DNA of 64,000 nucleotides from a bacterium. GTDB lineage: Bacteria; Zhuqueibacterota; QNDG01; JAFGCO01. Every line of letters begins with the position of its first letter. Position 1 is the stretch's first letter. Positions 11,196-63,794 of the stretch are shown piece after piece. The position numbers and the translations under genes were made by a program. The DNA is taken from the NCBI GenBank assembly GCA_016932575.1, contig JAFGCO010000002.1, positions 1-64,000 of the forward strand. Direction: 5' to 3'. The notes under the pieces are model-generated. The model had not been told where the DNA came from, did not search any database, and saw nothing but the letters and a program-made list of their open reading frames with translations.

Positions 11196-12260
11196 ATGCA
11201 AAAGAGTCAATTTAATATCACTCGTACTTTAGATACTCATCAATGGAGTTCTTTTGTAAAAAATCATCCACAAGGCAATGTTTTTCATACACCTGAAATG
11301 TTTCATGTTTTTTCAAATGCCAATAATCATATTCCTGAATTATGGGCAACTTTGGATTCTGATAATCAAATTGCCTCACTTTTTTCTCCAGTTATCTTAA
11401 ACGGACGAAATAAATTATTTGATTTTTTTATGCAACGCAGTATTAGTTATGGCAGCTTATTGACCAATCTTGATACTGAAGACCTGGGATCTATTGAGAA
11501 ATTAATAAAAAGCTATTTAAAAACGTGTAAATTATTACCAATATTTATTGAAATGCGTAATTTAACTGATCTTTCGTATTTACGTAATATATTATTATCA
11601 TTTGGTTTTTGTTTTTATGATTATTTAAATTATATTATTCCATTGAATTTGCCTTTTGAGATCATGCTTAAGAGAATCTGTCGTTCTACTAGAAAAAGAA
11701 TTCGTAAAGAATTACGTGATCCAAAACTGGTAATTGAAACTGTGAATTCATCTGAAAAGGTTTCAATCTGTTATGGAATTTTAAAAAATTCTTATCGTCA
11801 TAATTGCGTTCCACTTGCTGATATCTCTTTGTTTTACAATGCTTTTAGAATATTATCTCCAAAGAATATGATAAAATTTACATTAGCAAAACATAAAAAC
11901 ATTTATATCGCGACTTCCATTGATCTTCTATACAAAGATACAATTTATGGCTGGTACGGCGGTTTTGATCGACATTATTCAAAATTTTCTGCGAATGAAA
12001 TTTTAATGTGGCATCTTCTTACATGGGGTGCCAGTCAGGGATATAAATTTTATGATTTTGGAGGTGCCGGTAAACCCGATGAAACATATCGAGTAAGAGA
12101 TTTCAAAGCTAAATTTGGAGGTAATCTGGTAAATTACGGACGCTTTTTATCTGTCAACGCTCCTGTTCGATTTTATTTTGGTACAGGAGCTTATAAATTT
12201 TTTCAAAACACGATACATTTCTTCAAATCAATAAATAAAAAAACAAATATGATTCGATGA
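11196..12260 (+). CDS. FemAB-like acyl/aminoacyl transferase
   Basis: A 354-residue protein of the FemAB/GNAT superfamily. It opens with a W-x-x-F-V...G-x-x-F-H/T pattern (HQWSSFVKNHPQGNVFHTP), has a central R-x-x-R-K-x-[IL]-RK segment (RSTRKRIRKELRD), and ends with a second GNAT-like half containing YGWYGGFDRHYSKFSANEIL and YKFYDFGGAG. Relatives include peptidoglycan-bridge transferases and enzymes that add acyl groups to envelope polysaccharide. The substrate cannot be told. A similar but diverged gene lies at 59153-60145. It is the last gene of the + strand block and meets the OPT gene tail to tail. Confidence 0.8.
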   Translation: MQKSQFNITRTLDTHQWSSFVKNHPQGNVFHTPEMFHVFSNANNHIPELWATLDSDNQIASLFSPVILNGRNKLFDFFMQRSISYGSLLTNLDTEDLGSIEKLIKSYLKTCKLLPIFIEMRNLTDLSYLRNILLSFGFCFYDYLNYIIPLNLPFEIMLKRICRSTRKRIRKELRDPKLVIETVNSSEKVSICYGILKNSYRHNCVPLADISLFYNAFRILSPKNMIKFTLAKHKNIYIATSIDLLYKDTIYGWYGGFDRHYSKFSANEILMWHLLTWGASQGYKFYDFGGAGKPDETYRVRDFKAKFGGNLVNYGRFLSVNAPVRFYFGTGAYKFFQNTIHFFKSINKKTNMIR

Positions 12261-12283
12261 AATTTTTTCGTTTTTATTGTCAT

Positions 12284-14167
12284 TCATGATCTCGATTTTA
12301 ATGCAACCCGATATAAAAACCAACCCAAACAACAGAATACAATCCCGGATACCATTTGTCCCATCCATTCCGACGGATAAATAATTTTAAAAAATTCGGG
12401 TCGTCGTGTTTGAATAACGGCAATGATGGCGATAACAACACCCATCAATCCTTCACCTGCAATAAATCCGGAACTTAAAAGAATACCCTGGTCTCTTCCT
12501 TTTTCTGAAAACGATTTATCATTTTGGATCCTGTGATCCAAGACATGACGTAATAATCCCCCAAGAAATACAGGAGTCATTGTGTATAATGGCAGATAGA
12601 CGCCTACAGCAAACGGAAGCGGTGGTATGCGGAATAAAAAAATAATGACAGAAATCAATGCGCCAATGCCAACAAGTGTCCAATTCAGATTTCCATCCAA
12701 CACACCGTCTAACACTGTTTTCATCAGAGTTGCTTGCGGTGCCGGAAGTTCCGAACTGCCGAATCCGTAGGCCTTGCCCAGATAAAATACTGCTAAACAG
12801 ACAAAAAAGGCGGAACCGATTGCACCGATAATTTCACTTATTTGTTGTTTTCGTGGTGTTGCACCCACAAGAAAGCCGGATTTCAAATCCTGAGAAATAT
12901 CGCCGGCAATGGATGCAGCAATACAAACCACCGTTCCAATTGTCAATGCTGTAATTTTACCTGTAAGATCTGTCCATCCTAATAATTTAAATATCATACC
13001 GACACCAAGTAAAGTTACAATTGCCATACCTGATGTCGGATTGCTTGAAACACCAATCATCCCGACAATTCGAGAAGAAACTGTAACAAAACAGAAAGCA
13101 AATATGACAATTGCAATACCGCTGATCAGCCTCATCAAAAATCCGGTTTGCATACCGATAATTCCGGGAATAAAAGCAATGATTGCAACAACAAAACCAA
13201 CACCGATGATGACATAATGAACAGACAAATCCTGTTGCGTACGCAGTTTTCCCTTCCCCATCATCCCGGCACTTGCTTTCAATTCATTTAATCCAATACG
13301 CAATGATTCAATCATCGTCGGGATGGATTTGGCAACAGTGATTAAACCAGCCATAGCCACAGCGCCCGCCCCAATAATTCGAATGTATTGATTCCATATT
13401 TCTTCCGGTGCCAGATTTTGTGTAACTTCAGGAAAATGCCATGCAATAAAAGGTATAATGAAAACCCATGAAAGCAGGCCTCCGCCAACCATAATCGTTC
13501 CGATACGCAGACCCAGGATGTATCCAACCCCCAGCAATGCTGGTGTGGTGGATATACCGACATTTGCTTTCGGCAAAACCGGCAGTTTTATATTCACTTT
13601 CGAAGGCCATAAATACATCAAAGAAATCAATCCTTTGTAAAGCGCACCGATACCAAGCCCGCGAAAAACATTTTTTGCAGTTGATCCTCCCTCATTGGCT
13701 GCTATCAGCACTTCGGCACTGGCTGTACCTTCAGGATATGGTAAAAATAAATGCTCCTTGACAATAAGAAATCCCCGTAACGGAATCATAAATAGAACAC
13801 CAAGAATACCACCGCACATTGCCAGTAAAGTCATCTGATAAAGCGGTACATTGTATCCCCAAATATATAAAGCCGGAATGGTAAAAATAATACCTGAAGC
13901 CAGCGACGAACTTGCCGATCCCGCTGTTTGAGAAATGTTGCATTCAAGGATAGTTGATTTTCCTAAGAGAGGAGTCAGCATTTTTAAAATTGCCACTGAA
14001 ATCACAGCCAGCGGAATGGCTGTACTAATGGTCAACCCAACACGTAAACCAAGATAGGCGTTTGCACTGCCAAAGATCGCACCAAGAAACACACCGAGCA
14101 TAACCGTTTTCAGATTAAAATCCGGCAGAGATTGACTGGCTGGAATAAAAGGTTTATGATTAGACAT
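12284..14167 (-). CDS. OPT family oligopeptide transporter
   Basis: Inner-membrane protein of 627 residues with about 14 hydrophobic helices. The N-terminal part FGSANAYLGLRVGLTISTAIP and the later SNPTSGMAIVT and AGDISQDLKSGFLVGATPRKQQ are typical of the prokaryotic OPT branch, thought to take up oligopeptides or metal chelates by proton symport. Length is typical. AGGAG precedes the ATG. It is divergent from the sirtuin gene across 88 bases and appears to be a single-gene unit. The substrate is unknown. Confidence 0.93.
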   Translation of the reverse strand: MSNHKPFIPASQSLPDFNLKTVMLGVFLGAIFGSANAYLGLRVGLTISTAIPLAVISVAILKMLTPLLGKSTILECNISQTAGSASSSLASGIIFTIPALYIWGYNVPLYQMTLLAMCGGILGVLFMIPLRGFLIVKEHLFLPYPEGTASAEVLIAANEGGSTAKNVFRGLGIGALYKGLISLMYLWPSKVNIKLPVLPKANVGISTTPALLGVGYILGLRIGTIMVGGGLLSWVFIIPFIAWHFPEVTQNLAPEEIWNQYIRIIGAGAVAMAGLITVAKSIPTMIESLRIGLNELKASAGMMGKGKLRTQQDLSVHYVIIGVGFVVAIIAFIPGIIGMQTGFLMRLISGIAIVIFAFCFVTVSSRIVGMIGVSSNPTSGMAIVTLLGVGMIFKLLGWTDLTGKITALTIGTVVCIAASIAGDISQDLKSGFLVGATPRKQQISEIIGAIGSAFFVCLAVFYLGKAYGFGSSELPAPQATLMKTVLDGVLDGNLNWTLVGIGALISVIIFLFRIPPLPFAVGVYLPLYTMTPVFLGGLLRHVLDHRIQNDKSFSEKGRDQGILLSSGFIAGEGLMGVVIAIIAVIQTRRPEFFKIIYPSEWMGQMVSGIVFCCLGWFLYRVALKSRS

Positions 14168-17724: not shown

Positions 17725-20625
17725 CTATTCCAACACCATCATTTTTCGGATCATCTGGTAGTTACCGTATTCACTTTCAGATTCGAGCGGTTTGGCTCGC
17801 ATACGGTAAAAATAAAGTCCTGCTCCCGATATTCCAGGTTGCCAGACAACCTGGTTTTCTCCCTTACCGATCCAGCCGTTTAACAGTAAGGCGACTCGCT
17901 GACCCAGTATATTAAATATCTCAATTTTTACATGACTTTCTACCGGTAAATCATAACGGATCGTGGTTGTGAATGAAACAGGATTTGGCGCATTCTGATA
18001 GATTCGATATTCCGTTATCTCCGGTTCCGGTGTTCCAGATGTATCCATGGAAAAATAACCACTTGTTCCAAATAAACTGGAATCAGAAACACTTCTCACA
18101 CGAATTTCATAATTGTCGTCCAGCGGCAAATTATAAGGAACATCCCAATGATAAGCACCGATGCTTTTCACCGTATCGATAATCATATTAAGTGTATCTT
18201 GATAAAAAAGTTGAACAATCACATCTTCATCCAGGTTGTCCTCCCATTCAATAAAACGCTTCAAACCCACAAACCAGGTATCGCCGGACTCTGGTGAAGT
18301 CACTTCAATAAACGGGAATACGGTTTCAAACCAGGCTGTGGACCAATCGCTGGTATCTATATCTGTGGAAGTTCTGACGCGCCAGTAATAACGCATTCCT
18401 GATTCGATTGAATCGAGTCTGTAAATGCTTTCCATCAGATATTCTTCCTCGACAATTAAATTTGTAAAAAGAGAATCACTTGACACCTGAAGTTCATGGT
18501 AAGTGGCATATCCGCGGGCGGACCATGTCAATTCAAGTGGCAAAGCCGAGTTTACTGTATCTTCAAAGACCGGGTGACTGAGTATAGGAGGCATCATTTT
18601 TACTGAATTAACAGGGTATGTAAATATAAACTCTCCGATTTCACCATCGCCACCAAGACCGTTTCTTTGCACAATAGCCTTTAATTCCTTTGTAACGGGA
18701 TTATAGTTGGTTTCAAGTGGAAAAAACATATACCGATCTTCAAACATCCGGTAATATATCGTAATTTGTTCAGGATATTTTAATCCCAAATATTCTACAT
18801 CAAAAATCATTTCGAGACGCAGTTGATCAATAGAGAATTGATCCAAAACATATCGCATCGGAAGCACAAGAGGCGCCTGTTCTGGAAATTCCGGCTCAAA
18901 GGGTCCGTAATTATAGTAATAACCGATCAATTCATTGTATCCAAAACCTGGTTTTTCAAGGATGGTAACCGTAAGACCGAGATTCACATCAGCATTTTTA
19001 AATGCATAGGTATTGCCTTCCTGCACTTCAAAGACCGTAACTGTTTTTGCTGGTTCTCTTCCTTCATATGGATACCGAAAAACACGATAGCTACCAAAAC
19101 CCGACTCTGCAAACCGCATTTCCATAACTACATTTCCGTCAGCGTCCACTTCAGTCGCCACGGGGTATCCCTCTTTAAGGGATGCGAATCCCCAGCCAAT
19201 CAGTGTATTGCCATTTGGCAATCTTTGTGCATTTCCCATGGTTGGTACAAAAATATCCGGATCGTGACGATATTCCCAAACTTTGGTGGCAGTCATGGCA
19301 GATTCATCAATGGCATACTCAACCACACGGGAATAATTCCGGTTAAACTGGCTCGCACCATTATCAAACATGGTAATATTTCCGTTTGAAAGACATCTTA
19401 CATCATGCTGAAACATAAAATAAAGAGGCGCATAGTCATCAGATTCATTTAAAAATGTGAAATCATTGTTTTTACCACCCATCCTCCACATGATTTCTCC
19501 TGTCTGGCGATTAATCTTGGTTACTTCGCCTAAAGCCAAAACAGAGACAACAAGATTTCCATCATTTGACACATCGACGGAATTTATATGAATCGCATCA
19601 AAATTCTTGTTACTGAGATCATTATAAGAATCCGCCAAATTAAAATAATCCCAGCTGCGCCATTGAAAAACCACATAATGATCAATATCCAGTTCCTGGA
19701 TGATTGATCCGGCAACCATCGCATCGGGTCTTCCATTTTCTACAATTTCGCTCATATCTACCGGTTGAAAATCATAACCGAACAAAATCGTATGGCCGTT
19801 GGGCAGGTATAAAAAATCATGAAAGTCAGCAATATATTCATTTCCCATCTGATATTCATCGATTACGGAATATGTATCGTTCATAACATAGAAATCAGTA
19901 TAACCGCCGCCTGAAAATGCAAAATATTCATATAAAAGACCATAAGATATCAAACCATTGGGCTGCAGTTTGAAATCAAAGGGTACTTTTCCATTTACTT
20001 CTTCCTGATAGAGAATATCGGCATGATCATTCGTTATTAAAAGATATCCATCGGCTGAAAAGAACTGTGTTGGCGCTAAAAAGAGTTTACCAGGCGCTGT
20101 TTCGCCGCTTATCGTGATATTTAACTCAGGAAGAGAATCGGCTTTCACAAATGTGTTTTCCATGAGTGGCATAGCTTTAGAGGATTCAATTTTTTTACTG
20201 GCGATGACCGGATTTGACAGGATTGTTGTATGAAACTGGAAATTAAACGGAGGGATTTCTGCTCCCTGCCCTGATTTCAGAAATATATTGGTTTTCACGG
20301 TCACTTTTTCTTCAGAATCAAAGGGGATATCCGGATAAAAAAGGATCGATCTGCGATCTCGGGTGATGACAATACGTCCGGTATGCGGTCCGCTTTTGGA
20401 TCCATGTACTTCAACCAGCGTATCAGATATCCGGTGATCAGAATCGATAATCGATCCCGGTTTGATGATGATATTGGTATTTCGTGAAATCATTCTGGAT
20501 CCATCTTGAGGAAATATATATTGCAGATCGACTGGCACTTCTGCATTCATTATAAAACAGGATACAATAACAAAAATGAACAATATCTTAATTTTTTTAA
20601 TTTCCATAATGTTGGCCTTTATCAT
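17725..20625 (-). CDS. Exported arylsulfate sulfotransferase (ASST) with C-terminal sorting domain
   Basis: Large secreted enzyme of 966 residues. It has an N-terminal signal segment (about 8-28), an Ig-like domain (30-135) and a beta-propeller ASST domain (about 165-520) with the family patterns DFHDFLYLPNGH, HINSVDVSNDGN, TGEIMWRMGG and FQHDVRCLSNGNITMFDNG. His407 in QHD matches the His that carries the sulfuryl group in ASST enzymes, which move sulfate between phenols without PAPS. A fibronectin-like region follows, and the last 90 residues (YQNAPNPVSFTTTIRYDLP, then GLYFYRM) form a type IX-like sorting domain. A second ATG at 20607 preceded by AAAGG is an alternative start. Confidence 0.88.
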   Translation of the reverse strand: MIKANIMEIKKIKILFIFVIVSCFIMNAEVPVDLQYIFPQDGSRMISRNTNIIIKPGSIIDSDHRISDTLVEVHGSKSGPHTGRIVITRDRRSILFYPDIPFDSEEKVTVKTNIFLKSGQGAEIPPFNFQFHTTILSNPVIASKKIESSKAMPLMENTFVKADSLPELNITISGETAPGKLFLAPTQFFSADGYLLITNDHADILYQEEVNGKVPFDFKLQPNGLISYGLLYEYFAFSGGGYTDFYVMNDTYSVIDEYQMGNEYIADFHDFLYLPNGHTILFGYDFQPVDMSEIVENGRPDAMVAGSIIQELDIDHYVVFQWRSWDYFNLADSYNDLSNKNFDAIHINSVDVSNDGNLVVSVLALGEVTKINRQTGEIMWRMGGKNNDFTFLNESDDYAPLYFMFQHDVRCLSNGNITMFDNGASQFNRNYSRVVEYAIDESAMTATKVWEYRHDPDIFVPTMGNAQRLPNGNTLIGWGFASLKEGYPVATEVDADGNVVMEMRFAESGFGSYRVFRYPYEGREPAKTVTVFEVQEGNTYAFKNADVNLGLTVTILEKPGFGYNELIGYYYNYGPFEPEFPEQAPLVLPMRYVLDQFSIDQLRLEMIFDVEYLGLKYPEQITIYYRMFEDRYMFFPLETNYNPVTKELKAIVQRNGLGGDGEIGEFIFTYPVNSVKMMPPILSHPVFEDTVNSALPLELTWSARGYATYHELQVSSDSLFTNLIVEEEYLMESIYRLDSIESGMRYYWRVRTSTDIDTSDWSTAWFETVFPFIEVTSPESGDTWFVGLKRFIEWEDNLDEDVIVQLFYQDTLNMIIDTVKSIGAYHWDVPYNLPLDDNYEIRVRSVSDSSLFGTSGYFSMDTSGTPEPEITEYRIYQNAPNPVSFTTTIRYDLPVESHVKIEIFNILGQRVALLLNGWIGKGENQVVWQPGISGAGLYFYRMRAKPLESESEYGNYQMIRKMMVLE

Positions 20626-20652
20626 AATTTTTTTAATCCAAAATTTTGTAAA

Positions 20653-21741
20653 TTATATGGGTATTTTAAATGTGTCATAAATTGACGCGTAATCTTCGAG
20701 TATACGTTTTTCACTCAGCCCGAATTGTATCAGATCATATTGATGTTTGCTTTTATATTGCCGCTGCTTTTCTGCGGTTTCACGTATATTTTTTATAAAC
20801 GCATTGGAGGGAGTTAAATTTAAAAAATGAATTATTTCATCCATCAATCCGTCAAAATCCTGCATAATACGGTGATATGGTACAATCATCACGCGCTCTT
20901 GGGATAACTTTCCTGCGATATAATCGTTATGAAATAGAAGGCTTAAATCCAGAAACGCCTGATAAAGCCTGCCGAGGTATCTCTGCCTAATATCGTCCGG
21001 TAATGACCAGAATTGAAAACGCTGATCTAAAACACCGGTAACCAGACTCATTCCAGAAGGTACAGTCGACCTTGGATCCCGGACCATATACAAAATATTT
21101 GCATCTGGAAATTTTTGCAGAAACTGTGGCATACGGATACCGAGTGAAAACAATTTTGCCAGTACACGATCACTTTTTGTACTGATCAAATTTCTTCGCC
21201 AGATGGCTCTGTACCATCGAAAATCGCGTTCTGAGGTGTCTCGTATTTTTGGATCAAACAATGCAACCGGATCATTCTTTGCCCAGGCCAGAAAAAAACC
21301 ATAAAGAAAAAAACCGTCGAAATACCTGAAAAGCGTAGAAGGATCATCCGTCTCAACGGATGTCAAGCTTGTCGCATGAGCTGCTTTAGAATGATGACGG
21401 GTGGGGCTGAATTTTTCCATGACCGGAATGAATGGTTTAATCAGTGCCTGCTGCAGTAAGGATGGATAGATCATCTTCCAGACTTGCATGCCGACGCCTA
21501 TTTTGTTTTCAACGAGGAATCTGTGTATAAATGTGGTTCCGCTTCTAGGATTTCCAACGATGACAATGGGTCGTTCAATTTGTTTTTTAAATAAGGAAGG
21601 ATAAAAAAGATAATCAAGCTTAAGAAATATCGATACAATAACATGATGTATTAATAAATTAATAAACGTGAAAACCGGACTTATCCACTTATGAAAAGTG
21701 TGTCCAATCGCCAGATAGGTCATCCACATCCTTTTTAGCAT
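20653..21741 (-). CDS. Sulfotransferase family protein (PAPS type)
   Basis: A 362-residue cytoplasmic or membrane-associated sulfotransferase. The 5'-phosphosulfate loop is IVGNPRSGTTFIHRFL (61-76) and the 3'-phosphate site is YMVRDPRSTVPSGMSL (about 209-224), both diagnostic of PAPS-dependent enzymes of the Sulfotransfer_3 group. Hydrophobic stretches at 20-50 and near 145 suggest a lipid or membrane-bound substrate. It lies 27 bases before the ASST gene and 92 bases after a ketoacyl synthase gene on the same strand. The acceptor is unknown. Confidence 0.88.
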   Translation of the reverse strand: MLKRMWMTYLAIGHTFHKWISPVFTFINLLIHHVIVSIFLKLDYLFYPSLFKKQIERPIVIVGNPRSGTTFIHRFLVENKIGVGMQVWKMIYPSLLQQALIKPFIPVMEKFSPTRHHSKAAHATSLTSVETDDPSTLFRYFDGFFLYGFFLAWAKNDPVALFDPKIRDTSERDFRWYRAIWRRNLISTKSDRVLAKLFSLGIRMPQFLQKFPDANILYMVRDPRSTVPSGMSLVTGVLDQRFQFWSLPDDIRQRYLGRLYQAFLDLSLLFHNDYIAGKLSQERVMIVPYHRIMQDFDGLMDEIIHFLNLTPSNAFIKNIRETAEKQRQYKSKHQYDLIQFGLSEKRILEDYASIYDTFKIPI

Positions 21742-21785
21742 TTGCGAAAAAGTCCTTTCGTTAATTAGGATGATTGTTAATACAT

Positions 21786-21803
21786 CGGCTTCATTAAAAG
21801 CCG
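21786..21803 (-). other. Hairpin between ketoacyl synthase and sulfotransferase genes
   Basis: CGGCTT (21786-21791) pairs with AAGCCG (21798-21803) around CATTAA. No T run follows on the - strand, so it is not a clear terminator. It may be an mRNA processing or attenuation element. Confidence 0.35.
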
Positions 21804-21833
21804 CCGCAACATTCTATGCTTTTGAAATTTACC

Positions 21834-22802
21834 TCACCATCTGATTAATGCGTATGCAATCGAAAGCCCTGCTCCTGAACCCCCGATCAATACAAGATCG
21901 TTGCGTTTCAGCAGGTCTTTTTGATGGGCCCATGCCATTGCCATTGGTGTGGAAGCAGCGATGGTATTACCCGTCTTTTCAATAATATTGACCAGTTTAC
22001 TTTTATCAATTCCATAGCTGGGTGCAGATTTGAGTGCGGGACCGGATGCCTGATGGGGAATTAGCCAGTCAATGTCCCTTGCCTTGATACGGTTTCGTGT
22101 CATCAGTCTGTCTAATATAATGCCGGTATATTTTCTGGCCATTTTAAAAACTTTCGGTCCTTTCATATGAAAAAAATAGTCTTCAGGCACGGTTTTATCA
22201 CATGTATAAGGCGGTCTTAGAATGCCCGCTCCTCGAAATTCAGTGAGATTTTTACCTTCTGGCCATGTTGCAATCTCCCAATCCAGCCATGCACTGGTAT
22301 CAGAATCAGGGGTTGACTCCACAAGGACAGCTGCTGCGCCATCTCCAATAAGCGCTGCACTTTCTGGTTCATTCATATTCCGAAAACCGGATCCAACCTC
22401 TGAAGATACGATCAGTATGCGCTTATAACTTCCTGCATGAATCATGACAGCGGCTGAATGCAGGGCCACTAAAAATGAAAGACAGGTCGCATGAATACTC
22501 CAGCATGGAATGCCTGAATAGCCCAAAGCTTCTTGAATAAATACCGAACTGTCCGGAATTAACTGCATGGGTGTAACAGATGCGTTTAAAATACAGTCCG
22601 GTGGCGGTTCGTCTGCCATGGCATTTCTAACGGCCTTGGCCGCATTGAGATGCATCGGTTCTTCAGAAATATGCCTTTCCAGAACGCCGGTACGCGATGT
22701 GATCCACTGTTCACTTCGGTTGATAAGTTTTCCAAGTTCCCAATTATTTTGAATTCTGGGCGGAAGATAAAAACCGGTTTTTGTTATTTTTATTTTGTAC
22801 AT
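21834..22802 (-). CDS. 3-oxoacyl-ACP synthase III family protein (FabH-like)
   Basis: Thiolase-fold condensing enzyme of 322 residues. The catalytic triad is visible: Cys107 in HATCLSF, His250 in IPHQASG and Asn279 in TGNTIAAS. SEVGSGF and LIGDGAAAVLVE are further family motifs. FabH enzymes join an acyl-CoA with malonyl-ACP; this branch could also start a specialised lipid. No other fatty acid genes are next to it, so a housekeeping role is not favoured. The start at 22802 gives the usual family N-terminus MYKIKITKTGFYLP; an ATG seven codons earlier (22823) is possible. Confidence 0.87.
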   Translation of the reverse strand: MYKIKITKTGFYLPPRIQNNWELGKLINRSEQWITSRTGVLERHISEEPMHLNAAKAVRNAMADEPPPDCILNASVTPMQLIPDSSVFIQEALGYSGIPCWSIHATCLSFLVALHSAAVMIHAGSYKRILIVSSEVGSGFRNMNEPESAALIGDGAAAVLVESTPDSDTSAWLDWEIATWPEGKNLTEFRGAGILRPPYTCDKTVPEDYFFHMKGPKVFKMARKYTGIILDRLMTRNRIKARDIDWLIPHQASGPALKSAPSYGIDKSKLVNIIEKTGNTIAASTPMAMAWAHQKDLLKRNDLVLIGGSGAGLSIAYALIRW

Positions 22803-22995
22803 CCAGGCTCTCAAATCAATCATTTAACTTCTGAATTCAATTTCATTTAATGTATGCTTTTGGTTCAAAGGAAATGTCATTGGCATGTAAAAATTTGTAA
22901 AAATTGTTTTATCCATTCTAGTGCTCACTTCAGTGATAAAAAGTCAGTCCTCAGTTGATAAATATGTGTTCATAAGACATCCATGAGGCAAATGA

Positions 22996-23607
22996 TTATT
23001 GGACAACCAGAATCGTACCGTTCATTTTTTTGATACGATTGACTCGCATTCCCATACTGATAACTGTCTCATAATACTTCTGATAAGCACCCAAAGTTTC
23101 CGTCCCTTCCACTACTTCATCCAATTTACCATCTGCATTTTTGTCAATCACGATAATATCTGCTCTGAAAAAGGTACGGTCGACAACAGTTAATTTATTA
23201 TAAATATCACCAAAAGCCAAAACATAAGTCGCAAGTATATAATTCCTTAGGTCATCATTATATCGGTATTCCCTGGCAAATGTGCGCTTTTTAATATATC
23301 CGCGTCGCTCGCCTTCGGCAATGCCCTCCTGATAAATCCGTCCGGCTTCCTGCAGTGATAAATTGCCGGCTGTCACTTCATCCAGAATACCATCCTGCTC
23401 TTTATCAATGGCTTTCAATATCAACTTTCCATCGTCTCTGCGCATCAGAATATTATATCCCTCCGAAATTGTGGGTGTCACACTTTGTATACGGTATTCT
23501 TTACCTTCGTAATTAAATGAATAGCCTCCAACTTCAACAATGTTTCCCCGTTTGGAACATGAAAAGACAGAAAATATCAAAACCGATATCCATAAAATCA
23601 ATTTCAT
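22996..23607 (-). CDS. Lipoprotein with two EF-hand-like calcium motifs
   Basis: A 203-residue exported lipoprotein with signal peptide and lipobox VFSC (Cys17). Two similar segments, IDKEQDGILDEV (near 68) and IDKNADGKLDEVVEG (near 154), follow the DxxxDGxLDE pattern of EF-hand or dockerin-type calcium loops. The remainder is not recognised. Its ATG overlaps the TGA of the Nudix gene by two bases, so it ends an operon of four genes. It may bind calcium at the outer or inner membrane surface. Confidence 0.75.
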   Translation of the reverse strand: MKLILWISVLIFSVFSCSKRGNIVEVGGYSFNYEGKEYRIQSVTPTISEGYNILMRRDDGKLILKAIDKEQDGILDEVTAGNLSLQEAGRIYQEGIAEGERRGYIKKRTFAREYRYNDDLRNYILATYVLAFGDIYNKLTVVDRTFFRADIIVIDKNADGKLDEVVEGTETLGAYQKYYETVISMGMRVNRIKKMNGTILVVQ

Positions 23608-26033: not shown

Positions 26034-27620
26034 TTACTTTAGTAAAATCATTTTATTTATATCGACATTGTTATCAACAGATAAAACTGTGAGATATATA
26101 CCGGAACTCAAATGACCGGCATAATAAGTCACACAATGTATTCCTGGCATCTGTTTTCCATGTAATAAAGTAGTGATCCGTCGTCCCAATTCATCATACA
26201 CAGACAGATCAACACGAGCCGCATGATTCAATTCAAAAATGATCTGTGTTGTTGAATTAAAAGGGTTGGGAAAATTCACGATAGAATAATCCCTCGGTAA
26301 CGTTTTAAAATAATCTGCATAGACAATATTACCATTGTTCCAGAGCACGCGATTTTTCCTGATCCATTCATTATTAACTTTTTCATAAATCACAGTTTTT
26401 TTGAGTAAATGGTTCTGAAAAGTATTTTCCTGCTTTTCTTTGTCCTTCCACAATCCATTTTTGATCTGATACAGAACGATTACGGGATCGTCATTTGCAT
26501 CATACTGCGTCAGTTCTTGCTCCACAGCATCCCATCCGTTATTCCAGGTTTGAAATAACCAACTTTTGAGTCGGCATTCATCGTATTTCAGATATTCTCT
26601 CTCTTTTAAATTCCAAATATTATTTTCCCAATAAGAATAAATATGTTCGGTCATGTTGGAGCTGGCATCCCATTCAAATTCATCAAGATTTGTATTCAGC
26701 CAATCAGTCATAATTTTCGGTGTGATCGATGCTTTTCCAATGATGTCGGGATTGATCTGTTTCATAAAGGTTAACACATTTCCCTGCTCATCAAATGTTC
26801 GTAAAATCTGATCGACATCGGTCCAGCCTAAAATGGGATATTTTGTCTGAGCAATTTCTTTGATTGGAAAGCCATAGTCGTCATAATAAAAAAGAATTTG
26901 AAAAGACTCGATCCATTTGTTTTCTATGTACAAGGAAGCGGAATATCGTGTTGGATAATATTCAGTATTATAAGAGAAATTAAATTTTGCGACATTCGTG
27001 ACAGATGTTTTTTCTTTCAGTTCAGCTTTTAAAAGAAGCTCCGTGAGATATGATTTATTGTCGTGGGTCAGATATGCCTCCAATACATTATTCCACATCG
27101 TTCTGCCGGATTTTAATAATCCGGCTCCGGCAGATTGAAAAATCAGTTTTGAGAGCAAGCCCGCTTTGTCTGTTTCACTGATAATTTGTATTTGATCCTG
27201 CCAATCATTTCCATTCCAGATTTGATTCAGGTAATAAAAGTTAGGAATTAAATCCAAGTCGAGGAATGCGTAAAGAATATTTCTCGGATCTTCTGCAGTG
27301 GCTTCCATGGAGCTTTCGAGTTGGTTTAAAAACTCTGTGATGACTTCCGGATCGCTCCCGGTATTGATAATCGTTCGGGATCGATTTATCCATATTCCGG
27401 TTTCCCAGTTTTGATTAATAATTTCAGTAAAATTGTCATACAAAATCTGTGAGTTTTTTTGTTGCGGATGAAGTGATTTTAATCTCACAGTCCTCCTGTC
27501 ATGCGTATGTTCATGAATCAATATCTTATTTTTTATCGGATACACGTTATCAGAAATGTCTCCAAAAATAAGGCCGCAGATAAGCAGCCAAATCAATAAA
27601 ACGGCGGATCTTTCTCGCAT
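26034..27620 (-). CDS. Secreted protein with C-terminal sorting domain, function unknown
   Basis: A 528-residue exported protein. It has a signal peptide (about 1-20), then a long region rich in Trp and Asn with a loose repeat of the type W-N-N-G-W/L (for example NGNDWQDQ, ENNIWNLKERE, WNNGWDAVEQ, KNGLWKDKEK). The last 80 residues hold VNFPNPFNSTTQIIFELN and GIYLTVL, a type IX-like sorting domain. I do not recognise the repeat region as an enzyme. AGGAGA stands seven bases before the ATG. It lies 95 bases after the LptE-like gene. Confidence 0.8.
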   Translation of the reverse strand: MRERSAVLLIWLLICGLIFGDISDNVYPIKNKILIHEHTHDRRTVRLKSLHPQQKNSQILYDNFTEIINQNWETGIWINRSRTIINTGSDPEVITEFLNQLESSMEATAEDPRNILYAFLDLDLIPNFYYLNQIWNGNDWQDQIQIISETDKAGLLSKLIFQSAGAGLLKSGRTMWNNVLEAYLTHDNKSYLTELLLKAELKEKTSVTNVAKFNFSYNTEYYPTRYSASLYIENKWIESFQILFYYDDYGFPIKEIAQTKYPILGWTDVDQILRTFDEQGNVLTFMKQINPDIIGKASITPKIMTDWLNTNLDEFEWDASSNMTEHIYSYWENNIWNLKEREYLKYDECRLKSWLFQTWNNGWDAVEQELTQYDANDDPVIVLYQIKNGLWKDKEKQENTFQNHLLKKTVIYEKVNNEWIRKNRVLWNNGNIVYADYFKTLPRDYSIVNFPNPFNSTTQIIFELNHAARVDLSVYDELGRRITTLLHGKQMPGIHCVTYYAGHLSSGIYLTVLSVDNNVDINKMILLK

Positions 27621-27715
27621 TGGAGAATCTCCTTACGGAAATATTTTATTCATTGTCATTACAGTCTGTTACTGTTTTAAATACCCTGGAAGTATTAAAT
27701 CGCAGATATTTCTTT

Positions 27716-28207
27716 TTACCAGTCTGATATTGTTTTATTGATAATATCTTCTGCAATTTTTTGAACAGCCTCTTTGATTGCATCTTCGCGCATCGATTCA
27801 ATATTATCATAGGTTCCGAAATCTGAAAATGTGCTTTCCCAACGTACTTCGCGTTTGTGTATATCCTCAAATGAAGCCTGAATCGTCAGATTCACCCGAA
27901 AATCAGAAGCAGTTTCATTTGCATTATATTGTCCAACCGGTTCCCTAATGCTCATAATAATGCCGTGAAGCAATGCATCCGAACTTCCAGGATCAGCAAT
28001 TTTTAAAGTATTGTCTGTCCGTATTGCTTCAATGATAAAATCCGTGATCTGGCGATCAATTCCAAATTCAGCAGTTCGATCTTCAAAAAGTGGAATACCA
28101 ACGGTTTTTATATGCGGCGGAAGTGTCGAGCCCTTAAATGAATAGACGCCACATCCAATATGACTTATTGCCAGGGTGAGAAAGCATATTGAAATTATCT
28201 TATTCAA
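27716..28207 (-). CDS. LptE-like LPS-assembly lipoprotein
   Basis: Outer-membrane lipoprotein of 163 residues that would plug LptD in LPS export. It has a signal peptide with lipobox (SHIGC), then GVYSFKGSTLPPHIKTVGIP and FEDRTAEFGID, the N-terminal signature of the LptE group in this part of the tree, and a helical C-terminus. The best start is TTG at 28207, seven bases after AGGAG; the ATG at 28213 is only one base from that site. The ribosome binding site lies within the end of the upstream regulator gene, so the two are coupled. Confidence 0.82.
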   Translation of the reverse strand: MNKIISICFLTLAISHIGCGVYSFKGSTLPPHIKTVGIPLFEDRTAEFGIDRQITDFIIEAIRTDNTLKIADPGSSDALLHGIIMSIREPVGQYNANETASDFRVNLTIQASFEDIHKREVRWESTFSDFGTYDNIESMREDAIKEAVQKIAEDIINKTISDW

Positions 28208-60997: not shown

Positions 60998-61137
60998 GAT
61001 AATTATCAATTATTCTGTATTCAATAAAAAAAAACTCTATACCCTTATGTTTCAATAATCGTAAAAAATGAACCGTGATTTGCATAATTATCTAATAAAA
61101 TCCGTTGAATTTCAATTTCAAAAAAATGTAAAATCCC

Positions 61138-61166
61138 TTGACATCGATGGATTAATCATGTATCTT
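61138..61166 (+). promoter_or_regulatory. Promoter of the TetR-type gene
   Basis: TTGACA (61138-61143) and TATCTT (61161-61166) are separated by 17 bases. The first operator begins six bases after the -10 box, where transcription should start. The layout suits autorepression and shows that the open frame upstream of 61206 is not translated. Confidence 0.7.
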
Positions 61167-61171
61167 TTTAT

Positions 61172-61189
61172 TGACCGACCAGTCGGCCA
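61172..61189 (+). promoter_or_regulatory. TetR-type operator 1
   Basis: TGACCGAC-CA-GTCGGCCA is a palindrome with one mismatch and a two-base centre. It covers the expected transcription start of the TetR gene. The CCGAC/GTCGG core is shared with operator 2. Confidence 0.75.
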
Positions 61190-61205
61190 TAAAAAAGAAG
61201 ATGCT

Positions 61206-61814
61206 ATGACACCAAAAATAGTTGATAAAGAAGAAAAACGAAATAAAATTCTGGAATCTGCCATTCGTGTATTTGCCAAATTCGGTCTACCCAATACCAA
61301 AATGATTCATATTGCGGAAGCCGCCGGGATAGGCAAAGGCACGATCTATGAATATTTCAAAAGTAAGGAAGAACTGTCCGTGGCTGCCTTTAATGTGTTT
61401 GTTAAAGAAGCGCAGCGCCATCTCGATAAAAAAATAAAGAATATTGACGATCCTGTTGAACAGCTTTATACCTATATTGTTTCTTGGACAGAATTGTTGA
61501 ATGAAGAATTTCTCGATTATGCGGACATTATGCTGGACATATGGGCTGAAAGTGTTCGTCTCCATGAAGGAAGGGATATTTTTGGGCTCAACAAAATGTA
61601 TGCGCTTTATAGAAAACAGATTATTCAAATACTGAACACTGGATTCGAATCCGGTGTTTTTAAACAAGTTGACACAACAATTACGGCATCCATAATCATC
61701 GGAACCTTGGATGGCCTCATGCTGCAGTGGCTGCTGGATCGAAACCTGCTTGATATTAAACCTGCTCTCGAACATCTTGCAGATCTAATTTTAAGCGGAG
61801 TTAAATCCCAATAA
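61206..61814 (+). CDS. TetR family transcriptional regulator
   Basis: A 202-residue repressor. The N-terminal DNA-binding domain (about 10-58) has KILESAIRVFAKFGLPNTKM, IAEAAGIGKGTIYEYFKSKE, the TetR signature. The C-terminal ligand domain is helical. The start is ATG 61206, because a promoter and an operator lie just upstream; the frame opens 46 codons earlier but that part is leader. It likely represses itself and the next genes, which deal with the outer membrane. The ligand is unknown. Confidence 0.93.
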   Translation: MTPKIVDKEEKRNKILESAIRVFAKFGLPNTKMIHIAEAAGIGKGTIYEYFKSKEELSVAAFNVFVKEAQRHLDKKIKNIDDPVEQLYTYIVSWTELLNEEFLDYADIMLDIWAESVRLHEGRDIFGLNKMYALYRKQIIQILNTGFESGVFKQVDTTITASIIIGTLDGLMLQWLLDRNLLDIKPALEHLADLILSGVKSQ

Positions 61815-61824
61815 TTTTTTTAAC

Positions 61825-61852
61825 TTAATACCGACCGGCTGGTCGGTATTAA
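61825..61852 (+). promoter_or_regulatory. TetR-type operator 2, a 28-bp palindrome
   Basis: TTAATACCGACC (61825-61836) and GGTCGGTATTAA (61841-61852) are perfect inverted arms of 12 bases around GGCT. It sits between the TetR gene and the next gene, directly against the Shine-Dalgarno AAGGAG. The core spacing is six bases instead of two in operator 1. The same sequence can fold as an RNA hairpin. Confidence 0.8.
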
Positions 61853-61863
61853 AGGAGAAAATT

Positions 61864-62622
61864 ATGAAAACAAAAATTTTACTTTTTTTTGTGATTTTTC
61901 TTGCCTCCTGGTTGTACGGGCAATCCCTGTCAGGTCCGGAAATCATTGAAAAAGTCGACAATTACCTGAATCCAGAAACCTGCTGGGCCAAATCGAAAAT
62001 GACCATTCAGACATCTTCGGGAAAGGAAAGGACTTTTGTCTATGAATCCTGGAGTAAAAATCATGATGAGAAAAATCTGATCCGTTATCTCGAGCCGATC
62101 CGGGTGAAAAATCAGGCGACTCTGATGCATAATTATGCCGATGATATCTGGATGTATTTTCCCCGGACCCGGCGGGTGCGCAAACTGGCCACGCATGCGA
62201 AAAAACAAAAGATGGAAGGCAGTGATTTCAGTTATGAAGACATGGGCGCCGGGGACAGTTTCATCAAAGATTACACTTGCAAACGTCTTGAAGATCAATC
62301 TTTAGAAGATCGGCAATGCTATCTGGTCGAAATGCATCGAAAATCGAATGCGGATATTTCTTATTCGAGACTGAAAATGTATATCCTAAAAGAAAATTTT
62401 GTTCCTGTGCGTGTTGAATATTATGACGAGGATCATCCGGATCGATTGCTGAAAACATTGATTCAATCGGATATTCGGATTTTTGACGGCATCCCGACCG
62501 CCATGAAAATGATCATGATCAACGAAATTGACAATTCCGAAACCAAGATGGAATTTATTGAAGTCAAATACAATATTGAAATCGATGATGCCTTGTTCAC
62601 AGAAAGGGGACTGAAAGAATGA
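61864..62622 (+). CDS. LolA-like outer-membrane lipoprotein-sorting protein
   Basis: A 252-residue periplasmic protein with a signal peptide (about 1-20). LNPETCWAKSKMTIQTSSGKE, then WMYFPRTRRVRKL and GSDFSYEDM are the marks of the LolA-like group that accompanies RND/MMPL exporters. It may carry a lipid between membranes. It is under operator 2, with AAGGAG before the ATG, and overlaps the next gene by an ATGA junction. Confidence 0.88.
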   Translation: MKTKILLFFVIFLASWLYGQSLSGPEIIEKVDNYLNPETCWAKSKMTIQTSSGKERTFVYESWSKNHDEKNLIRYLEPIRVKNQATLMHNYADDIWMYFPRTRRVRKLATHAKKQKMEGSDFSYEDMGAGDSFIKDYTCKRLEDQSLEDRQCYLVEMHRKSNADISYSRLKMYILKENFVPVRVEYYDEDHPDRLLKTLIQSDIRIFDGIPTAMKMIMINEIDNSETKMEFIEVKYNIEIDDALFTERGLKE

Positions 62623-63794
62623 AAATGTATGGATTCTGGATTTTGATCTTTATTTTCCTGTCCTCTCCCCTTCTTTCTCAGCAATTAGATATGTTCGGAT
62701 ATTTCGAATCCCAGTTCATGGCTGCACGGGTTAAATCTGAAATTCTGCAGATGCAGAGCAACAAGATGCGATTGGATTTCGAATCTATACAGAACTGTTT
62801 GCATTTCGGTGCTAATATCAATGCGATCACCTACCATGGGAAAACCGACTGGATTATACCGGATTACCTTCCAGACCGGGTATGTAAAGAGATTCCGGCA
62901 TCTATTCGCTCATATTATGTACTCACGTTCGAAAATGAACTTGAGCTTGACAATGCTTATGTTCGGATTGCATTTCACAAATGGGACCTCACACTGGGAA
63001 AACAGCAGATTTCGCTGGGTTCAGGTTATGCCTGGAATCCCACAGACTTGTTCAATCAAAAAGACTTGTTTGATCCGACCTATGAGCAGCCGGGGCACAA
63101 TGCGGTTCGTGTGGATATCCCTTTGGCGTCCCGTCTCAACGGCATGATCCTTTATGCGCCCGATGACGACTGGAACAACTCCGCGAAGCTGGTTTCATTC
63201 AAAACCGGAATTGGACGATTCGATTATACGATCATGGCCATTGAAAAAGGATGGACATTTCATGACTATACAGCATTCTACGGATTCGATTTTCAAAAAA
63301 CAGTCGAAACCCGCAGAATGCTTGGCAGCAGCCTTGTGGGTGAACTGTTCGGATGGGGCGTCTGGTTTGAATGCGGTTATAACCGGATGCAAATCCGTGA
63401 TCATTTTTACGAAATCACGGCGGGAATGAATTATACATTCGATTTTCAGACCTATATCATGATCGAATACTACCGAAATTCAATGGCTCGGTCCCGAATG
63501 GACAATTATACATTGAATGACTGGATGCGATATCTGGCCTCCGAGCAAAAAGCGCTGAACCGGGATCAGCTGTACGTATTGATTCAACATCCGGTTTCTG
63601 ATCTTACTGACCTTGGTTTAAACGTGATTGCAGCCGGAGATAAAAGCCTTGCTCTACTTCCGACTCTTCGGTCCACACCGTTTGAAAATGTTGAACTTTT
63701 AGCTTATGGCAATCTTTATCTTGGAAAAGAAAGCGCGGTTTTTCACAGGAATCTGGGAAATGGCGGACTGGTTCGTATGCGTATATATTTTTAA
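62619..63794 (+). CDS. Outer-membrane beta-barrel protein
   Basis: A 391-residue exported protein. The signal peptide (about 1-20) is followed by beta strands with alternating polar and hydrophobic residues, many aromatic, such as FENELELDNAYVRIAFHKW and YTFDFQTYIMIEYYRNS. GKQQISLGSGYAWNPTDLF is typical of porin-like proteins found next to LolA-like and RND genes. The final residue is Phe (MRIYF), which is the usual barrel end recognised by BamA. Its role is probably in transport by the same unit. Confidence 0.82.
   Translation: MKMYGFWILIFIFLSSPLLSQQLDMFGYFESQFMAARVKSEILQMQSNKMRLDFESIQNCLHFGANINAITYHGKTDWIIPDYLPDRVCKEIPASIRSYYVLTFENELELDNAYVRIAFHKWDLTLGKQQISLGSGYAWNPTDLFNQKDLFDPTYEQPGHNAVRVDIPLASRLNGMILYAPDDDWNNSAKLVSFKTGIGRFDYTIMAIEKGWTFHDYTAFYGFDFQKTVETRRMLGSSLVGELFGWGVWFECGYNRMQIRDHFYEITAGMNYTFDFQTYIMIEYYRNSMARSRMDNYTLNDWMRYLASEQKALNRDQLYVLIQHPVSDLTDLGLNVIAAGDKSLALLPTLRSTPFENVELLAYGNLYLGKESAVFHRNLGNGGLVRMRIYF

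Follow-up and report, generated by a model that had tools for sequence, protein, structure and literature searches.

Where might an arylsulfotransferase (ASST) built for export find its sulfate donor, when 3'-phosphoadenosine-5'-phosphosulfate (PAPS) is cytoplasmic? The question is raised by three adjoining minus-strand genes in a 64,000-nucleotide stretch of DNA (the window; positions 1 to 64,000 of contig JAFGCO010000002.1, assembly GCA_016932575.1) from a bacterium of the phylum Zhuqueibacterota. In the direction of transcription they encode a beta-ketoacyl synthase III (KAS III)-like enzyme, a PAPS-type sulfotransferase and an ASST. According to the available parts of a 2026 review, ASSTs are served by aryl sulfates and not by alkyl sulfates or PAPS, with one putative enzyme that works with PAPS; the characterised ones use simple aryl sulfates in vitro, and the natural substrate of most is not known (PMC13426309). 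The same text states that in more than 40 years no natural ASST substrate has come to light, and elsewhere grants an established role to Cpz4, the ASST of the caprazamycin pathway (PMC13426309). We found that a functional link between the three genes is well supported by their conserved linkage, by co-occurrence and by the PAPS and lipid-export genes linked to them in relatives, and we give a probability of roughly 50% that they are central to a lipid-borne pathway that carries out sulfation in two steps.

The synthase gene lies at 21834..22823 (open reading frame (ORF) of 329 aa; ACP_syn_III and ACP_syn_III_C), with a probable start at 22802, which the initial annotation had used and which fits the homologues better. 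The sulfotransferase gene occupies 20653..21741 (362 aa; Sulfotransfer_3 and Sulfotransfer_1), and the gene of the probably exported ASST 17725..20625 (966 aa; Arylsulfotran_2 and Arylsulfotrans). Recomputed ORFs reproduced the same-strand arrangement and the gaps reported in the initial annotation (92 bases between synthase and sulfotransferase, 27 bases between sulfotransferase and ASST), and the families were matched in Pfam and NCBIfam. Upstream, the nearest same-strand gene stops 172 bases short of the synthase ORF; it has no family match in the Pfam or NCBIfam scan. Promoter-like sites in a scan numbered 42 against 43.6 expected, and terminator-like sites 11 against 8.1 expected. The source genome (G000) comprises 4.4 Mb in 72 contigs, with the window on contig C24, and its nearest named record by sulfotransferase is a candidate division KSB1 assembly (66% identity).

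Scanning a genome collection with the sulfotransferase yielded 38 loci with 48–66% identity, in records from KSB1, Ignavibacteria, Marinimicrobia, Fibrobacterota (Chitinispirillaceae), Myxococcota/Deltaproteobacteria and Pseudomonadota and in one Synechococcus-labelled record; the 38 sulfotransferase genomes are the window's own and 37 from the scan. A synthase orthologue is located 11–256 bases from the sulfotransferase in nine loci (KSB1, Ignavibacteria, Myxococcota, Pseudomonadota and the Synechococcus-labelled record), and 2.0–2.2 kb away in seven (Marinimicrobia and unclassified marine records); in one further locus a contig end truncates it. The two genes share a strand in all 17 of these linked loci, while no synthase orthologue was found at the other 21 in the stretches examined, some of which were short. 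Queries with the window ASST or with two Marinimicrobia ASSTs showed an ASST-like gene in the stretch examined at 20 of the 38 loci. Across whole genomes, a synthase orthologue occurs in 20 of the 38 (at least 413 bits; best non-orthologue 265), and G038 holds fragments.

Within the window's phylum, four of 82 genomes carry a sulfotransferase orthologue, scoring 575 bits or more where the best remaining match reaches 49. These four belong to four different families, and synthase and ASST adjoin the sulfotransferase in every one of them. A proteobacterial record (L053) has the synthase, the sulfotransferase and a short ASST-like gene in succession with gaps below 70 bases; in Fibrobacterota the synthase and the sulfotransferase are on different contigs. 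Because the neighbourhood is conserved across phyla, a chance neighbourhood of the three genes was rejected. The survey of relatives proposed in the initial annotation thus gave a positive answer: since the pair adjoins in Ignavibacteria, Marinimicrobia, Myxococcota and Pseudomonadota, the reservation that the genes might not be neighbours in any relative falls away.

In the sulfotransferase tree, the link to the synthase turns up on either side of the midpoint root and requires at least four gains or losses, showing that the partnership of synthase and sulfotransferase was lost, or gained, several times. A myxococcote without the usual synthase (L026) encodes a different KAS III at 11238-12314 of its locus, about 160 bases after the sulfotransferase; apart from this case, a profile search over the ORFs of all 38 loci revealed no substitute ketosynthase beside the sulfotransferase. 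MMPL- and LolA-like genes lie 6–9 kb further on in the same locus. Nine other neighbours at six loci without the synthase (two LGT, one radical SAM, one polysaccharide deacetylase, one iPGM and four without a family) formed no pattern. The sulfotransferase is present both in L052, labelled Synechococcus, and in L058, labelled Klebsiella pneumoniae; the latter label is doubtful because L058 falls in the proteobacterial/myxococcal clade. The genome sets overlap, as G006 and G070, which agree with G012 and G014 in contig numbers and coordinates, appear to be the same genomes.

We then compared the distribution of the sulfotransferase with that of ASSTs, counted as PF05935 matches. The two sulfotransferase-positive genomes of the window's order have 15 and 26 matches, and the ten negatives 0, 0, 0, 0, 0, 0, 2, 1, 0 and 2. 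At the phylum level, the four positives have 15, 26, 25 and 3 (the 25 of G070 being the count of G014), whereas 58 of the 78 negatives have none and the maximum is 5 (Mann-Whitney p 2.4e-5, with the positives entered as 15, >=20, >=20 and 3). A similar pattern was observed among 149 Marinimicrobia genomes, 19 of which carry the sulfotransferase (at least 444 bits): ASSTs are found in 19/19 genomes with it and in 17/130 without it (Fisher p 1.8e-14), and 19 of 20 sulfotransferase loci have an ASST no further than 3 kb away. Among the matches listed, the synthase is found in 11/19 genomes with the sulfotransferase and in 1/130 without it (p 6e-11); one of the 11 consists of two fragments on two contigs, and further fragments may exist beyond the matches listed. 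Overall, 35 of the 38 sulfotransferase genomes have PF05935 matches, including the 15 of G000. One Marinimicrobia genome (G263) has the sulfotransferase–ASST–synthase cluster twice, on contigs C13 and C22, with nearly the same spacing.

In relatives, the linkage extends to genes for PAPS synthesis and for export; we take MMPL, LolA-like and DUF1302 genes to encode exporters of lipids or hydrophobes. One such cluster is on contig C350 of G080, from the window's phylum, where the ASST (19362-22247), the synthase (22357-23322) and the sulfotransferase (to 24444) are followed by a DUF1302 barrel (26502-27818), an MMPL gene (from 27819), a LolA-like gene, ATP sulfurylase and adenosine 5'-phosphosulfate (APS) kinase, all in the same orientation and interrupted by a single ORF on the opposite strand. 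An Ignavibacteria locus (L024) combines synthase and sulfotransferase with PAPS_reduct (CysD-type), CysNC with APS kinase, a substrate-binding protein, two permeases, an ABC ATPase and an ASST. In Fibrobacterota (L102), two ASSTs, the synthase, two further genes, a barrel, MMPL and a LolA-like gene lie together with the sulfotransferases on other contigs, and in Polyangiaceae (L103) the synthase adjoins an APS kinase, a barrel gene lies 3 kb away on the opposite strand, and the sulfotransferase is on another contig. The Marinimicrobia pair is flanked by a START-domain protein, LolA_like, MMPL, ASSTs and a protein that resembles an outer-membrane barrel by eye, without a Pfam match. G000 itself has a DUF1302 barrel, a TetR gene, MMPL and LolA_like at ~89.9-95.0 kb of contig C24 (L117:1911-6994), about 67 kb from the sulfotransferase cluster and orthologous to the G080 set (MMPL 60%, barrel 52% identity), and its contig C18 has an ATP sulfurylase-like gene (32% identity) and an APS kinase. 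A clear APS kinase is present in 28 of 39 sulfotransferase genomes, G000 included; 33 of 39 are over the cut-off, but matches below 25 bits were treated as spurious, and G023, whose gene is cut off (90.5 bits), is outside the 28.

The synthase retains the intact Cys-His-Asn triad that the initial annotation had reported, as Cys114, His257 and Asn286, and these residues are invariant in a 17-row alignment of orthologues (43–60% identity) that left out L034 (28% identity, housekeeping type) and L047 (a contig-end fragment). ACP_syn_III is its family, with only a marginal match to Chal_sti_synt_N (E 0.048), and its TIGR00747 (FabH) score of 206.3 bits is under the subfamily cut-off of 292.1. Housekeeping FabH identity was rejected: among 12 genomes of the order, the remaining KAS III matches are 24–33% identical, apart from one orthologue at 58% (G006), and the synthase orthologues group in a clade of their own. 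Against solved structures, a profile of the synthase family scored highest with MxnB (273.6 bits) and CorB (268.8), compared with 240.4 for the best FabH and 204.4 for that of E. coli. In myxobacterial pathways, MxnB and CorB build alpha-pyrones out of two chains, and the synthase has the CLSF active-site motif in common with them. In a 45-row KAS III tree, the orthologues form one clade (100/99), and a 100/100 split places them on the MxnB/CorB side, away from the sampled housekeeping FabHs; the inner fork is weaker (85/49, its order unsure from one long-branched row), and the rows are without OleA, DarB, PqsD and BioZ. The AlphaFold model (predicted local distance difference test, pLDDT, 91.0) also placed MxnB first in a fold comparison (Z 42.9, root-mean-square deviation 1.7, 319 aligned; next 41.3). 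The closest solved relatives of the synthase therefore appear to be the alpha-pyrone ketosynthases MxnB (profile, tree and fold) and CorB (profile and tree).

The sulfotransferase scores 62.6 bits with Sulfotransfer_3 (PF13469; cut-off 27) and has a hydrophobic helix at about residues 21–46. Its alignment, made of the window protein and 36 of the 38 relatives from several phyla without the fragments L056 and L057, contains 62 invariant columns over 37 rows. All listed fold neighbours are sulfotransferases, the best being mycobacterial Stf9 (2z6v, Z 28.0) and Stf1 (2zq5, Z 26.4), followed by a next score of 13.5. Stf9 and Stf1 have only 14–16% identity to the window protein, however, and no link between them and such a gene set was found as far as the literature was searched.

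The ASST matches Arylsulfotran_2 (PF14269; 100.8 bits, cut-off 27) and Arylsulfotrans (PF05935; 94.9 bits, cut-off 24.2), and its best relatives are PDB entries 9kf4 and 9kf6. Alignment to E. coli AssT, in which His252, His356, Arg374 and His436 are active-site residues (PMC13426309, available parts), showed that His252/His356/His436 correspond to His269/His346/His407; Asn348 is conserved as well. The His407 codon, at 19405..19407 on the minus strand, is the equivalent of the transiently sulfated His436. Export is plausible, given a hydrophobic N-terminal segment and a type IX secretion system (T9SS) sorting domain in the C-terminal region (17728..17988, minus strand; residues 880-966, match 880-943), which scored 24.2 bits with TIGR04183 (cut-off 23) and 16.3 bits with Pfam's own sorting-domain model, under its cut-off of 27. 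The initial annotation's description of a secreted ASST with a conserved His407 thus stands for the histidine and is plausible for secretion, but has to be amended for the position of Arg374, considered below. Three other ASST genes of G000 (L001, L003 and L008) are closely spaced on one strand of contig C53, and a 24,530-residue open frame with an ASST domain (G000:C63:7182 onward, L100) was dismissed as an artefact, as the stretch examined runs into N.

From these observations we infer every chemical step of the pathway, along with its lipid, its acceptors and the part that the export set would play in this organism. In the cytoplasm, PAPS would be produced by ATP sulfurylase and APS kinase. 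The synthase would join acyl units into a lipid that bears an acidic hydroxyl, the likeliest form being a chain of the 4-hydroxy-alpha-pyrone type or another enolic or phenolic chain; as only aryl sulfates, and not alkyl sulfates, are reported to serve as ASST donors (PMC13426309), a donor made by the cell itself would be expected to be of enolic or phenolic nature. The membrane-leaning sulfotransferase would then move sulfate from PAPS to the lipid hydroxyl, and the aryl-sulfate-like ester would retain a high transfer potential. An MMPL/LolA-like/DUF1302 route could bring the sulfated lipid to the outer surface, where ASSTs exported by the type IX system would take the sulfate on the active-site histidine and hand it to surface acceptors. 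The initial annotation had suggested that an unusual lipid or phenolic chain is made and sulfated inside the cell and its sulfate passed on outside; the link between the genes that this idea presupposes now has good support, and its chemistry remains conditional.

A relay of this kind is already known from one antibiotic pathway. As described in sources that cite Tang et al. 2013, the caprazamycin pathway of Streptomyces moves sulfate from PAPS to the antibiotic through 4-hydroxy-alpha-pyrones, which are made by Cpz6, sulfated by Cpz8 and used in sulfated form as the donor of Cpz4, an ASST (PMC4257720, PMC4924298). The statement in the initial annotation that no such three-gene set was known is therefore incorrect, as this cluster joins a polyketide synthase (PKS), a PAPS sulfotransferase and an ASST. 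The likeness would lie in a dedicated condensing enzyme that makes the carrier, a PAPS sulfotransferase that loads it and a PAPS-independent ASST that draws on it; by family matches and neighbourhood, the window set encodes a PAPS-type sulfotransferase and a PAPS-independent ASST together, as the caprazamycin cluster does. However, Cpz6 is a type III PKS, whereas the window enzyme belongs to the KAS III family nearest MxnB/CorB; the window ASST has a T9SS sorting domain and stands among 15 PF05935 matches in its genome; and the window-type genes recur across phyla with lipid-export genes. The window set may thus work like the caprazamycin relay without being a member of it by the type III PKS feature. 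The adp 'sulfation cassette' of Streptomyces davaonensis (AdpPKS, AdpST and three PAPS-synthesis genes), as far as its available description goes, resembles G080 and the Ignavibacteria locus L024 in uniting a condensing enzyme, a sulfotransferase and dedicated PAPS genes in a single operon. There, however, a type III PKS makes adipostatins, the pathway ends with the sulfated lipid, and no ASST is among the five genes of the described operon. The combination of a KAS III, an export link and multi-copy, T9SS-sorted ASSTs across phyla was not described in the open-access literature searched, which holds few of the subscription papers, and a text search of the KSB1 genome paper PMC9012183 found no mention of sulfotransferase, sulfatase or T9SS.

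Several observations weigh against the lipid-borne pathway. The synthase orthologue is missing in 17 or 18 of the 38 sulfotransferase genomes and, among the matches listed, in 8/19 of those from Marinimicrobia; three of the 38 (G018, G028 and G042) have the pair and no PF05935 match; and ASSTs occur without the sulfotransferase in 17/130 Marinimicrobia genomes and 20/78 genomes of the window's phylum. The co-occurrence statistics ignore shared descent. In G000 the export and PAPS genes lie outside the cluster, and 10 of the 39 genomes have no clear APS kinase, nine of these ten being assemblies below 3 Mb. The synthase is only ~32% identical to MxnB and CorB, the CorB fold score (40.8) is level with those of several FabH, BioZ and PqsD entries, and none of this likeness proves pyrone formation. 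Finally, Arg374 of E. coli AssT is replaced in the alignment by Leu363 (codon 19537..19539, minus strand), so the window ASST may differ in activity: it may not transfer sulfate, or may do so in a different manner.

The last point is the basis of the alternative that survives best, according to which the window ASST is a surface or periplasmic partner that binds the sulfolipid, with any transfer carried out by other ASSTs of the genome. It could hold together with the lipid-borne pathway or with an end-product sulfolipid. The window ASST belongs to a synthase-linked subfamily in which an aliphatic residue takes the place of Arg374, as seen in the window's phylum, Fibrobacterota and Ignavibacteria: besides the window's Leu there is Val in L021, Leu in L023 and L101, Met in L102 and L030, and Val and Ala in the Ignavibacteria copies. 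By comparison, the seven of the 14 other G000 ASSTs that were examined keep Arg (six) or have Lys (one) and, this Lys apart, look complete at the checked positions. We also considered loss of Arg374 as an exclusive mark of synthase-linked ASSTs and rejected it, as distant ASST-like proteins lack the Arg too (Leu in L030:5128 and an L102 fragment, Ser and Gly in two of L050). Unlike E. coli AssT, with which it shares the family match and the histidines, the window protein combines the Leu with a sorting domain and an adjoining gene pair that could make the donor. Nevertheless, a mere binding protein would have no need of the three active-site histidines and Asn348, all of which are kept, and we regard a pure binding role as a real possibility, although a rather doubtful one.

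An alternative that we consider unlikely is that synthase and sulfotransferase make a structural sulfolipid of the outer membrane as an end product, with ASSTs that act on or beside this lipid and draw their sulfate from elsewhere. Such a product would suit the MMPL, LolA-like and DUF1302 genes in the clusters of relatives, given the exporter role assumed for these families, and the genomes G018, G028 and G042 with their pair alone. It leaves unexplained why ASSTs are rare in sulfotransferase-negative genomes and why one lies no more than 0.7 kb from the sulfotransferase at 19 of 20 Marinimicrobia loci, and the ASSTs would still require an aryl-sulfate donor, no natural one being known according to the available review text (PMC13426309). 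The co-occurrence with expanded ASSTs thus favours a carrier over an end product, without proving the carrier. That the ASSTs serve to scavenge or detoxify aryl sulfates and phenols from the environment while the adjoining pair serves an unrelated acyl pathway is very improbable: it would agree with the simple aryl sulfates used in vitro (PMC13426309, available parts) and with the Marinimicrobia ASSTs that occur without the sulfotransferase, but not with the cross-phylum linkage and co-occurrence, nor with the restriction of 15 or more ASST matches to genomes with the pair in the window's phylum.

Extending the lipid-borne pathway beyond the window, several unrelated diderm phyla might share a general extracellular sulfation pathway in which a dedicated enolic lipid is loaded from PAPS inside the cell, exported by MMPL/LolA-like/DUF1302 proteins and drawn on by a large family of exported ASSTs for distribution at the surface, which would make it their natural donor system. 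We propose this tentatively and lean slightly against it. A carrier of this kind could be viewed as the sulfate counterpart of lipid-linked sugar donors. For cytoplasmic PAPS on the one hand and ASSTs built for export on the other, the gene set points to a concrete candidate route for the donor, with enzymes and an exporter, in organisms whose ASST matches number as many as 26. It thereby makes the question of the ASST donor testable and could explain the sulfate source of a long-puzzling enzyme family. If the pathway exists, diderm bacteria could sulfate surface polymers from outside, and these genomes would be a source of new sulfation enzymes.

Elsewhere in the window, a TetR-type regulator (by eye), a LolA_like protein (179 bits) and an outer-membrane-barrel-like protein (by eye) are encoded in a row at 61068-63794, and weak MMPL-like matches follow past the window end, at ~65-68 kb of the contig. 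This region may hold another export module of broadly the same type.

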